From NCBI RefSeq assembly GCF_000498495.1, contig NZ_AVCS01000009.1:124001-188000 (forward strand): a stretch of DNA of 64,000 nt, in the 5' to 3' direction. The stretch's first letter is position 1, and each line of letters opens with the position of its first letter. The notes beneath the pieces are model-generated. The model was given only the letters and a program-made list of their open reading frames with translations. It had not been told where the DNA came from and searched no databases. Origin of the DNA: Flavobacterium enshiense DK69 (GTDB lineage: Bacteria > Bacteroidota > Bacteroidia > Flavobacteriales > Flavobacteriaceae). The position numbers were made by a program, and so were the translations under genes. Positions 23,387 through 26,783 of this stretch are shown here, in pieces.

Positions 23387-23848
23387 ATTACAATGTTACC
23401 TTGTGGGTCATTCCTTCTTGTGTTAAGCCTAAAAGGTTTTTTATAGTTATAGTGTCTTTCACTGTTGTTCTAATTTTGAATTTTTTTTAAAAGTGAAACA
23501 GTTTTTGTTTATTTTTTGAAAAAAAAATCATTTTAGAACAAGGACTTTCCATATAGGTCATCATAATGCCGCACTCAAAAAAATCACCTGATTTGGTGAT
23601 TGTGTGGATGGTTATTTATGGGTTGGTTTGGAATCTGCGATTAAGAACAGTTGTTGAAAGATGATCGGTAGCGTTGGTAGTAACACCTCGCTATCGCATG
23701 AGGAGTTTTTTATTACAAATTGGTATCTTAGTGCAAGATTAAATTTTCTTTTTTGATAAAAAGAGATGGTTTGATTCTAGATATATATTGAAGTTAGCAG
23801 CTAGTAGTTTCCCGCGACGGAAACTAGATGATAAATAAACCTATATAA
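23387..23848 (+). other. Gene-poor, hairpin-rich leader region
   Basis: No convincing gene is seen. The first half is very AT-rich and featureless. From 23580 there are three separate inverted repeats: AATCACC/GGTGATT at 23582-23601; CGGTAGCG/CGCTATCG (one G-T) at 23666-23696, extendable outwards by ATG/CAT; and AGTTTCC/GGAAACT at 23806-23825. The last one lies just inside GTTAGCAGCT (23793-23802), whose inverted copy occurs at 24125-24134 beyond the next ORF. The layout looks like a structured leader of a small mobile or cassette-like unit. I recall similar leaders in Flavobacterium but cannot verify that here. Confidence 0.45.
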
Positions 23849-24134
23849 ATGAAAACAGTTAATGTGCTTGGAAAAGTTATTTTGAAACTTCTTAATTCTT
23901 TTCGTAAAAAAACTAATGCAAGTGAAAATCTAGTCGAAAATAACGTCGTCGTTCAAAACGTAATTGAACTTCAAAATAAAATGAAAAATAGTTGGCTTTA
24001 TCCGGTAGATCAATTCGGAAAAATGAAAATAGGAATAGAAAACGAATCGCAGAATTATGAAAGAGAAATGCCGACTACGAAATCAGACTATGAGATTATA
24101 AATTCATAATAGTAAAATTCTGCCAGCTGCTAAC
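23793..24134. repeat. 10-bp inverted repeats bounding a small ORF
   Basis: GTTAGCAGCT at 23793-23802 and AGCTGCTAAC at 24125-24134 are perfect inverted copies 322 bp apart. They enclose a 7-bp hairpin and the 86-codon ORF. No transposase or flanking target duplication was recognised. The arrangement suggests a cassette-like or non-autonomous element. Confidence 0.45.
23849..24109 (+). CDS. Small hypothetical protein (86 aa)
   Basis: I do not recognise this product. It is 86 residues, has no membrane segment, and is rich in Asn, Lys, Glu and Val, with an amphipathic N-terminal half (VLGKVILKLLNSFRKK) and a polar C-terminal half. The start is an ATG after an A-rich stretch typical of Flavobacterium translation starts. 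It is the only ORF inside the inverted repeats at 23793 and 24134, and a clear intrinsic terminator follows at 24171-24204, which argues for real transcription. It could also be a non-coding segment, since 86 codons in AT-rich DNA is near the chance limit. Confidence 0.45.
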   Translation: MKTVNVLGKVILKLLNSFRKKTNASENLVENNVVVQNVIELQNKMKNSWLYPVDQFGKMKIGIENESQNYEREMPTTKSDYEIINS

Positions 24135-24170
24135 AACGGTTTTAAGAAATGGGGGGTTTTGTCAAGAATT

Positions 24171-24204
24171 AAAAGCTACAGCGTTAAGTTGTAGCTTTTT
24201 GTTT
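24171..24204 (+). terminator. Intrinsic terminator after the small ORF
   Basis: AAAAGCTACA (24171-24180) pairs with TGTAGCTTTT (24190-24199) around a 9-nt loop, followed by a T-rich tract. The 155 bp from here to the DUF445 gene contain only a CTGTGG/CCACAG inverted repeat (24290-24320) and no other clear signal. Confidence 0.75.
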
Positions 24205-24359
24205 TGGTCTAGAAATGAGCGCGCAAAGTAGGGTAATTAATTATCGTACACGTATCAATTTATTCAATAACTTTAATATGAAATTAAATCTGTGGCTGAC
24301 AAATTAAAAAGTGTCCACAGAATTCAGCGTTTCTTAAGTCCTAAACAATAGCTGCGGGT

Positions 24360-25640
24360 ATGAAAAACAGGGTCGGGTCCATTTCGTTACTGATTGCCTT
24401 TGGCGGTTTTGCCGTTTTGGAAACAATGATGCAATTGGGGCTAATTGATCATTGGGGCTGGAGCGTGTTTAAAGCTGGTTTTGAGGCCGGCACAGTCGGC
24501 GGCATGGCCGATTGGTTTGCGGTGAGTGCCCTTTTCCACGAAATCCCGATTCCTTATGTCCGAAAGCATACCGATATCATAGCCAAGAACAGGGAAAAGC
24601 TCACCGAAGGAATAGTAGACCTGGTGACCAACAAGTGGCTGTCGCCTGAAGTCATTGCCGAAAAACTGCACGACATCGATCTGGCTCAAAAAGTAATTGT
24701 ATTCCTCAAGAAGCCTTCCAATCAGGAAAAGGCAATTGACCTTATCAAGAAAATTGCGTTGAAACTATCCGATGAACTGGACAATCCCAATCTGGCAAAG
24801 TCACTGCAGTCGATGCTGACAGAACAGCTGTCGGAATTGGATTTGGCTTCCTCATTAGGAGTCTGGCTGGAGAAGTCGATCAAAAACGATGACCACAATC
24901 AAATCTGGGAACAGTTGCTTGAGGCGGGTGCAAAGTCAGTCAGCGAACCGGAGATAAAGGAACTGCTGATTGACAAACTGCGAGATGCTGCCAAAGAGTA
25001 TGGCAATAAGTCCATTCTAAAAGGACTGACGGTAGCTTTAGGGAGAACATTTAATGCTCTCGATTATGAGGCTATTGCCGATGAGCTGCTGGTGAAAGCT
25101 AATGAATTTTTAACCGAAGCCAGGTATAATCCGAATCATCCGGTGCGCACTAAATTTGACAGTTGGATGCTTGATTTTGCCCATAGGTTGGCAACCGGTG
25201 ATGAGGAAACCCGTAAACTGGTTGATGACTTCACCAATCGCTTTATCGGACATGCCGACCTTAGCAAGATTATCCAACGGATGTTGGGGGGATTTAAAAA
25301 TACGCTGGCCGAACAGCTCGATAACAATGAAACCCCACTGATGCAGTTTGTGATTGGGAAACTGAACCAAATTTTAGACAATTTGGAAAATGACGTTCAA
25401 GCACGGGAGAGAATCAACCACTGGATAAAGGATACCATTTCCCAAATGCTTGAAGAATTCCACGGCGAGATAGGAAACATGGTGCGCTCAAGCCTGGAAA
25501 AATTGGATAATAAGGAATTGGTAGTGCAAATAGAGGAAAAAGTTGGCAATGATTTGCAGTACATACGACTGAATGGTGCCTTGGTTGGCGGATTGGTCGG
25601 AGTAATGATTGCCTTGGTGAAAGTTATGTTCGAGATTTAA
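24360..25640 (+). CDS. DUF445 family membrane protein
   Basis: This 426-residue DUF445 protein starts with a membrane segment and the family signature FKAGFEAGTVGGMADWFAVS ALF, followed by HEIPIPYVRKHTDIIAKNRE. The middle is a long helical, probably coiled region, and the C-terminus is a second membrane helix (GALVGGLVGVMIALVKVMF). The family is widespread, sits in the inner membrane and has no settled function. The codons are noticeably more G+C-rich than in neighbouring genes at the 5' end. No clear promoter was found; the gene after it is 54 bp downstream on the same strand. Confidence 0.85.
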   Translation: MKNRVGSISLLIAFGGFAVLETMMQLGLIDHWGWSVFKAGFEAGTVGGMADWFAVSALFHEIPIPYVRKHTDIIAKNREKLTEGIVDLVTNKWLSPEVIAEKLHDIDLAQKVIVFLKKPSNQEKAIDLIKKIALKLSDELDNPNLAKSLQSMLTEQLSELDLASSLGVWLEKSIKNDDHNQIWEQLLEAGAKSVSEPEIKELLIDKLRDAAKEYGNKSILKGLTVALGRTFNALDYEAIADELLVKANEFLTEARYNPNHPVRTKFDSWMLDFAHRLATGDEETRKLVDDFTNRFIGHADLSKIIQRMLGGFKNTLAEQLDNNETPLMQFVIGKLNQILDNLENDVQARERINHWIKDTISQMLEEFHGEIGNMVRSSLEKLDNKELVVQIEEKVGNDLQYIRLNGALVGGLVGVMIALVKVMFEI

Positions 25641-25694: not shown

Positions 25695-26783
25695 ATGCAA
25701 AAAAAAATACAATATGATTTAAGGTTGCAGCCATTATGGACAAGAATTGTTTTATTGTCTGTACTCGGTTATGAGGGCTTAGGGGGATTGGTTGGCGGTA
25801 GCTTTTTGGTTGCAAAATCAAATGGTGAATTGATGAAAATGCCGGTTGAAATAATGCATGGCACCTTTAATGATTTTCTCATCCCCGGGATTATACTTTT
25901 TGTGATGGGGGTTCTGAGCCTGTTTGCTTTTTTCAGAATCCTTCGCAAAAGGCAAAACGATTGGCTTTGGTCTTGTGTTGGACTTTTGGGTTGGTACATA
26001 TGGTTTGTTGTTGAAATAATTATTCTGCAGGAACTGCATTGGCTGCACCTTATGTGGGGAGTGCCTGTCCTGCTGGGAATTATAACCGCTGTTCCTCTTG
26101 TTGTGGCGAGAAATAATACGTCTTCAATGCTTAACTATTTATTGTACTGTGGTATTCTTTCTTCATTGTGGTACACATTTATGAACGTATTCGTGCCATT
26201 GCATTATCCGGGATATTCATCCACTTCGTTAACCGTTAGCGAACTTTCAGCCATAGGAGCGCCTACACGGATTCTTTGGGTATTGTTGGGTACACTGTAT
26301 CCATTGCTTTATGCTGCATTTGGCTGGGGAGTTTTATATGCATCCGGAAATAATAAAAAGCTGAAAATTCTTTCGGCACTAATTATTGGTTACAGTGTCC
26401 TCAATCTTTACTGGCCGCCCATGCATACACGCGAGGCAATTGCTTCGGGCGCAAAGTCTTTAAGTGACACCCTTCATATTGCATGGACTATTGCTACGGT
26501 GTTGCTGTTTGTCTTCACTATGGCATTCGGAGCCGCGGTATTTGGAAAAACATTCCGCATTTATACCATCATCAGTATCACGCTCCTAGTGGGATTTGGA
26601 ATACTAACAAGCCAAGATGCTCCAAATCTTGAAGCCAATTTGCCAACACCGATGATGGGTTTATGGGAGCGCATCAACCAATATATCTATTTCCTGTGGG
26701 TGATTGTACTGTCAATTCAACTGATAAAGAAAAATAAAATCAACTCCAATAGACCGGATTTGCCCACGAGCGAAGCGAACTGA
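25695..26783 (+). CDS. Polytopic membrane protein, C-terminal half DUF998-like
   Basis: This 362-residue protein has about ten hydrophobic segments in two groups. The N-terminal group (about 15-140) is not assigned to a family with confidence. The C-terminal group (about 145-345) resembles DUF998 with ELSAIGAPTRILWVLLGTLY and NLYWPPMHTREAIASGAKSL. The final residues (LPTSEAN) and stop codon are encoded within a 17-base segment that also occurs near 551, so the natural C-terminus may have been altered by a repeat. A role is not known. It is probably cotranscribed with the DUF445 gene. Confidence 0.6.
   Translation: MQKKIQYDLRLQPLWTRIVLLSVLGYEGLGGLVGGSFLVAKSNGELMKMPVEIMHGTFNDFLIPGIILFVMGVLSLFAFFRILRKRQNDWLWSCVGLLGWYIWFVVEIIILQELHWLHLMWGVPVLLGIITAVPLVVARNNTSSMLNYLLYCGILSSLWYTFMNVFVPLHYPGYSSTSLTVSELSAIGAPTRILWVLLGTLYPLLYAAFGWGVLYASGNNKKLKILSALIIGYSVLNLYWPPMHTREAIASGAKSLSDTLHIAWTIATVLLFVFTMAFGAAVFGKTFRIYTIISITLLVGFGILTSQDAPNLEANLPTPMMGLWERINQYIYFLWVIVLSIQLIKKNKINSNRPDLPTSEAN

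Follow-up and report, generated by a model that had tools for sequence, protein, structure and literature searches.

The window analysed here, a stretch of 64,000 nucleotides from the 3.39-Mb draft genome of Flavobacterium enshiense DK69 (contig C9, positions 124001-188000), raises the question of what a small gene enclosed by perfect 10-bp inverted repeats is, and by which system it arrived. An initial annotation of the sequence had suggested an integron-like cassette, of a kind carrying variable small genes. The repeats, GTTAGCAGCT (23793-23802) and AGCTGCTAAC (24125-24134), are exact reverse complements, and the hairpin, the 86-codon open reading frame (ORF) and the terminator described with them were all found in place (Table 1). 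The suggestion is supported by cassette arrays elsewhere in the genome, by the pairing of cassette ends and by empty sites in relatives. The unit is very probably one gene cassette from a capture system of the integron type, and the repeats are its two ends.

The window unit and the insertion around it

Cassette ends were examined with a pairing test, in which a cassette's first bases are set against the reverse complement of its last bases. For the window unit (GTTAGCAGCTAGTAG vs GTTAGCAGCTGGCAG), the test gives ten matches, an A facing a C at position 11, and then three matches out of four. A strict 15-position detector of such ends returned one match on both strands of the 64-kb window, namely the unit itself. 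The inverted repeat alone is weak evidence; the same detector finds a mean of 0.35 matches on one strand of shuffled windows (n = 20), and the match of the adjoining arm is therefore needed as a second line of evidence. The arm run 3′ of the unit, which agrees closely with the array consensus (Table 1), raises it above chance. Given this arm and the A/C pair at position 11, an ordinary small gene that has an inverted repeat around it by chance, as the detector's yield on shuffled windows would allow, is hardly credible.

Table 1. Features of the cassette unit and its surroundings (window coordinates)
Feature	Position	Strand	Basis or remarks
Insertion absent at this place in relatives	23391..26910		Gene order, nucleotide matches; right border is the end of the DUF4403 gene
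Element U	23690..23792	+	Promoter-like TATCTTAG (23724-23731), then attI-like end CTAGATATATATTGAA abutting the cassette GTT
5′ cassette end	23793..23807	+	15 positions, GTTAGCAGCTAGTAG; A at position 11
Hairpin TAGTTTC...GAAACTA in cassette leader	23805..23826		7-bp stem; by eye
Cassette ORF, 86 codons	23849..24109	+	ORF list, Pfam, relatives
3′ cassette end	24120..24134	+	CTGCCAGCTGCTAAC; C opposite the A of position 11
Left arm of attC-type recombination site	24132..24156	+	23/25 bases as in array consensus
Dispersed repeat	24163..24208	+	Intrinsic terminator-like hairpin at 24171-24199
DUF445 gene	24360..25640	+	Accessory
DUF998 gene	25695..26783	+	Inside the same insertion

A BLAST search of bases 23560-24210 against the whole genome found 26 places: the segment itself (1), the 3′ arm (17, E = 1.3e-8 to 5.4e-4), the stretch preceding the 5′ end (3), the terminator repeat (4, three on contig C16 and one at C28:98455) and a stretch further upstream (1). 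The GCTAACAACGGTTT ends that the initial annotation had mentioned correspond to the left arm of the recombination site. Separately, window bases 23578-23630 recur at C6:328642 (81% identity); by eye, they are also found on C16 and, in two relatives (G009 and G011), upstream of element U.

No right arm was found in bases 24135-24420 (286 bases), where the best match was 8/16 and 50 shuffles gave 8-10; the place expected for the inner part and right arm of the site is taken by the dispersed terminator repeat. Lacking a right arm, the cassette should be unable to leave, and the window copy is probably stranded and immobile.

The 86-codon ORF matched no Pfam family at E<=1, and in the window as a whole Rfam reported, at gathering thresholds, two tRNAs only, both far from the unit. 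Weak matches to the 86-aa product occur in 11 other genomes. Short relatives in G003 and G124 share a KNKWLYPxDxFG motif (read by eye), two further matches lie in G128 and G035, and the remaining seven fall in long frames; the five of these that were inspected resemble TonB receptors and were judged to be chance.

The initial annotation had placed the unit in a gene-poor stretch of a dense core region. This description does not hold, as the DUF445 and DUF998 genes belong to the same insertion of about 3.5 kb, which comprises the attI-like element, the cassette, the terminator repeat and these two genes. The DUF445 gene is present in 3 of 61 genomes of the genus at E<=1e-50, this one included. 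The comparison with relatives showed the site empty in 11 of 12, where an 88-aa gene and the DUF4403 gene, convergent to it, are separated by 10-146 bp; the approximately 860 bp examined in the twelfth relative (G028) contained no DUF4403. Nucleotide matches of all 12 relatives end before 23,480, and none of them has a DUF445 or 86-codon ORF match at the locus.

Cassette arrays and their recombination sites

In the same genome, one-way series of repeats run along the last 9 kb of contig C28 and along C29, C30, C32, C40 and C41. The repeat has the form TAAC-AGCGGTTT...GCCGGCGGGAC-GTT and recurs mostly every 500-1000 bp (about 700), so arranged that a palindromic attC-type site, from AAC to GTT, lies between cassettes. 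Core-anchored extraction, adopted after loose cassette chaining had given many false sites, yielded 75 complete sites, along with 77 cassettes that have both ends. None of the 77 are identical and two pairs (4/77 cassettes) are near-identical; the site arms are conserved and the genes inside differ, an outcome that the initial annotation took to support a cassette family. A single-copy segment, the same ORF in all relatives, or unconserved ends, any of which the initial annotation took to speak against a cassette, is not what was seen. The C28 array adjoins a recombinase gene; what connects the other five series with this integrase is their site sequence only.

A much longer array is present in a complete genome of the same genus (G073), where it takes up 177 kb (about 3,076,100 to 3,253,060). 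It has 251 right cores and 254 left ones, and successive right cores are never more than 3.5 kb apart. A motif built from the arms of the F. enshiense sites missed the arrays of relatives, and the own-end-pairing detector found them. The G073 statistics given here come from the 198 cassettes in the first 140 kb of its array. The longest ORF of at least 60 aa lies on the array strand in 175/198 of these (2 opposite, 21 with none) and in 74/77 of the F. enshiense cassettes (0 opposite, 3 with none). The cassettes are thus one-way, in tandem and mostly single-gene, as in integrons. Near-identical cassettes are common in G073 (51/198, in 15 groups); the largest group, 15 copies, is of a 122-bp cassette that lacks an ORF of 60 aa, the others being mostly distinct. 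No exchange between the two genomes was seen, because they have no cassette in common at the settings used. An ORF scan covered the first 40 kb of the G073 array, C28 and C29 (67 ORFs, of which one preceding the array was dropped); the 66 cassette ORFs included 17 Pfam families with one member each, among them MerT, HMA, HepT-like, PIN and CHAT, and matched three PADLOC models.

The pairing of ends is a property of each cassette. In G073 the matching fraction is 0.97-1.0 at positions 1-9, 0.68 at position 10, 0.01 at position 11, 0.90-0.96 at positions 12-15 and 0.14 at position 16, with an A facing a C at position 11 in 193/198 cassettes (69/77 in F. enshiense). Perfect 10/10 pairing is found between a cassette's start and its own end in 126/198 cassettes of G073, vs 6/194 when the start is set against the previous cassette's end; the corresponding figures in F. 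enshiense are 48/77 and, with the neighbour's end, 0/59. A start and the previous cassette's end behave as shuffled pairs, in which only the fixed positions 1-3, 4 and 8 score high. Such own-end pairing is what would be predicted of circles that open and close inside GTT, and mutually complementary cassette ends are likewise found in integrons; in a class 1 integron used as a control (four cassettes, two distinct end types), own ends pair over 12-13 bp without the A/C mismatch. Two points go beyond the initial annotation: the ends pair within each cassette, with no single repeat shared by all, and the window copy is without half its site.

These data also bear on a non-autonomous, MITE-like transposon with terminal inverted repeats, moved by a transposase. 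The ends are inverted and site arms are dispersed over several contigs, as such an element would have them; however, the ends vary between cassettes and yet pair with their own other end, where terminal inverted repeats would be fixed, and the copies form tandem series in one direction, next to a tyrosine recombinase gene. We consider a MITE-like origin very improbable.

The core sequences depart from those of integrons. Either of the integron cores RYYYAAC and GTTRRRY was present in only 2/77 cassettes of F. enshiense and 1/198 of G073, while the shorter GTTR is present in all 275 cassette starts. When sites were folded as circles, the bottom strand was the more stable in 196/196 sites of G073 (means of -33.2 vs -25.7 kcal/mol for the top strand) and in 43/67 sites of F. 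enshiense (-27.2 vs -26.1 kcal/mol); mononucleotide shuffles, 40 each, gave about -13 to -15 kcal/mol. A top-strand A/C corresponds to a bottom-strand T-G, and the wobble may therefore mark the strand. Two extrahelical bases six pairs apart, as in a classical attC, were sought as a common element and dropped (0/67 in F. enshiense, 0/196 in G073). A four-base spacer on one side facing 0-2 bases on the other recurs in the folds (61/67 and 195/196, respectively), and the commonest folds show, by eye, a 1x1 mismatch and, six pairs further on, a single bulge.

As candidates for a promoter Pc of the array, TAnnTTTG-like boxes follow the stop codons of many integrase genes (by eye). A box of this kind lies inside 72/75 F. 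enshiense sites (7.1 in shuffles) but in only 1/200 in G073, the other genome counted, and a promoter box in nearly every site was accordingly abandoned as a general rule.

The recombinase and its distribution

No integrase is visible in the window, as the initial annotation remarked; elsewhere in the genome, however, one adjoins an array. This is a gene for a tyrosine recombinase of 356 aa (C28:262207-263277), which stands at the head of the C28 series and points toward it, with an attI-like site between the gene and the array. The position of this site, beside the integrase gene and at the start of the first cassette, is that of an integron attI on anatomy alone. A TATA-rich end before GTT is common to 24 such integrase-side ends (by eye, from 30 loci).

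The protein carries the Pfam domains Phage_integrase and Phage_int_SAM_4. Its best NCBIfam score is for XerA (NF040815), whose cut-off it narrowly misses (219.3 vs 220 bits); it stays well below that for IntI (TIGR02249, 211 vs 265 bits), with a match split between 5-176 and 239-315. Two anchors of the alignment are 76 residues apart, as compared with 75-87 (most 76-77) in other Bacteroidota sequences and 118 in IntI1 and its four companions in the tree; these four loci are called IntI here from the spacing and the tree, not from annotation. The IntI additional domain, an insertion of about 41 residues, is absent. Two features of integrons are therefore wanting, since the recombinase lacks this insertion and cassette starts are almost never GTTRRRY. 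In a quick tree of 104 sequences, the five IntI group together, separately from the Bacteroidota sequences, and F. luminosum and F. aciduliphilum are placed among those of the genus. Across 24 aligned members R214, K239, K241, H303, R306 and Y338 are invariant and H329 is nearly so, in keeping with the catalytic set of tyrosine recombinases.

An AlphaFold model of the recombinase (pLDDT 79.7, pTM 0.51) is matched best by XerA (4a8e, Z 23.4 over 253 residues, rmsd 6.6), then by 5hxy (Z 20.7) and by IntI4 (2a3v, Z 18.6 over 247 residues, rmsd 11.4). By sequence, IntI4 is the best match among solved structures (E 7.6e-42), and its residues from about 211 to 244 have no counterpart in the recombinase. 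The protein has in addition an extra N-terminal region of about 75 residues, for which no Pfam family scored over its cut-off in the 6 members searched and which modelled poorly alone (pLDDT 56); it may be akin to HARP domains.

Relatives of the recombinase were found in 79 of 150 genomes of the genus (E<=1e-60) and in 94 of 296 genomes drawn from the phylum (profile, E<=1e-70), F. enshiense included in both. Among 26 integrase loci of the genus, chosen for contig extent and identity and not at random, 19 have at least two signature cassettes on the integrase strand and 7 have 0-1; one of the 19 (L082) rests on two detector matches without site context and looks false, leaving 18. A further 80 loci from named records, many of them short or distant, gave 8 with at least two, including Winogradskyella ursingii, Seonamhaeicola aphaedonensis, Algibacter onchidii and a Rufibacter sp. 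(11). A prediction set down in advance was then tried on 15 new full-length loci, taken from 13 genomes: at least two signature cassettes were present on the integrase strand in 10/15 and at least one in 14/15, as against at least two on the opposite strand in 1/15. The accompanying prediction, that arrays would be absent where the N-terminal model has no match, failed: 3 of 5 such loci had at least two signature cassettes. The frames of these three loci are long, and the N-terminal region may therefore be present in them in divergent form.

Several observations at other loci deserve mention. A stretch of the Chryseobacterium sp. SNU WT5 plasmid NZ_CP041688.1 (L158:11995-25035) encodes an integrase 42% identical to that of F. 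enshiense and a group II intron reverse transcriptase, with three signature cassettes on the integrase strand and two matches on the other; the plasmid is possibly a mobile form of the system. Outside the Bacteroidota, Firmicutes bacterium HGW-Firmicutes-8 (L209) has a shorter recombinase and, on the other strand, four consecutive signature cassettes. In two relatives, a repeated hairpin of about 50 bases begins at AACAGC inside sites (L079:3293 and 10787, L099:4132) and may be a site-targeting insertion or another site type. Right after the integrase in L068 and L062, attI is apparently interrupted by a hairpin-rich element starting GATGG, and an end similar to that of this element also precedes cassettes in L158.

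A proposed landing site away from the array, and comparison with known systems

In the mechanism that we propose, the recombinase would join the folded single strand of a site at its GTT core, as in integrons; cassettes would be cut out as circles and then inserted at attI, and the top-strand A/C would become a T-G wobble pair on the bottom strand, favouring the folding of that strand. The window cassette would have been inserted outside the platform, at an element with an attI-like end and a promoter, and its right arm would have been lost afterwards.

The element concerned, U, has three more copies on C16 (78-84% identity). In relatives, one long (77%) and one partial copy were found in G009 and a partial copy in G011; some match at E<=0.001 exists in 17 of 150 genomes of the genus, consisting beyond these two of short pieces only. 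An attI score was built from the 24 integrase-side attI ends, which themselves score 8.2-18.9. The start of the window cassette ranks 9th of 2614 GTT sites with a score of 0.9, far below these model sites, while the starts of lone cassettes on C16 rank 1st and 2nd of 511 and the G011 copy 1st of 141. U is therefore attI-like as a family, and the window copy is degenerate at best. The C16 region (L031:2800-11200), with its U elements, lone cassettes with decayed arms and terminator repeats, resembles a graveyard of captured genes. In G009 (L115:1485-1600 on), U is followed by a gene with roughly pairing ends (by eye) whose start is ATT and not GTT, perhaps a decayed lone cassette.

We infer that U is a landing site and not a relic. 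The converse would be that the lone cassettes of the window and C16 are the remains of decayed platforms, with U as the true attI and the integrase and array deleted. Several degraded site arms and lone cassettes do lie within 12 kb on C16, and U has the promoter-like box and attI-like end of integrase-side sites. However, the nine integrase matches of the genome are on different contigs or, within C9, at a distance of about 300 kb, and with an insertion of only 3.5 kb and 11 of 12 relatives empty, a whole platform would have to have been gained and lost in one lineage. We regard platform decay as possible and rather doubt it. It has also to be considered that U and the terminator repeat together form a second, divergent type of cassette junction, the window unit then coming from another type of array than that of C28. 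This would fit C16, where successive genes have a U copy before them and a terminator repeat after them; yet one C16 unit (L031:6109-6762) passes the strict end-pairing detector, another (L031:10142 to about 10660) pairs at 9/10 positions (by eye), both end in the left arm of a known site type, and the window arm is of the C28 type. A second junction type is unlikely.

The additional domain of IntI is given as defining for integron integrases (PMC9668308), and integrons are on record in Bacteroidota (PMC8618304). The IntegronFinder 2.0 paper lists a single complete integron in Bacteroidetes proper, in Salinibacter ruber (PMC9024848). Among the matches listed in the open literature, titles and the starts of abstracts held no paper on arrays such as these; preprints and most subscription papers lay outside this scope, and a description may be in print. 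Tentatively, the present system may be a second, phylum-wide integron lineage, perhaps of separate origin, with a XerA-type recombinase that has a new N-terminal region and no site-reading insertion of the IntI kind, folded sites with a T-G wobble and arrays of up to about 250 cassettes, and which would also fill dispersed orphan promoter-attI landing sites like that of the window. If it works as proposed, a large route of gene gain in Bacteroidota has been overlooked. In VchIntIA (2a3v), it is the I2 helix together with two histidines that touch the site's extrahelical bases (PMC3053210); the recombinase described here has no counterpart to most of this stretch, which makes for a testable mechanistic question.

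Like large sedentary chromosomal integrons, the system has one-way cassettes, mostly with one gene each and with pairing own ends, palindromic sites that run between AAC and GTT, an attI-like site beside a tyrosine recombinase gene and a better-folding bottom strand. Unlike them, it has a recombinase without the IntI additional domain and with an N-terminal region of about 75 extra residues, an integrase gene that points toward the array, rare GTTRRRY cores and, at position 11, a near-invariant A/C. XerA recombinases work at a single dif site; the recombinase described here differs from it in the array of sites attached to it and in the added N-terminal region. In having no integrase nearby, the window cassette resembles the clusters of attC sites lacking an integron integrase that are termed CALIN in the IntegronFinder paper (PMC9024848), from which it differs in being one cassette with half a site, in a genome that does carry the recombinase.
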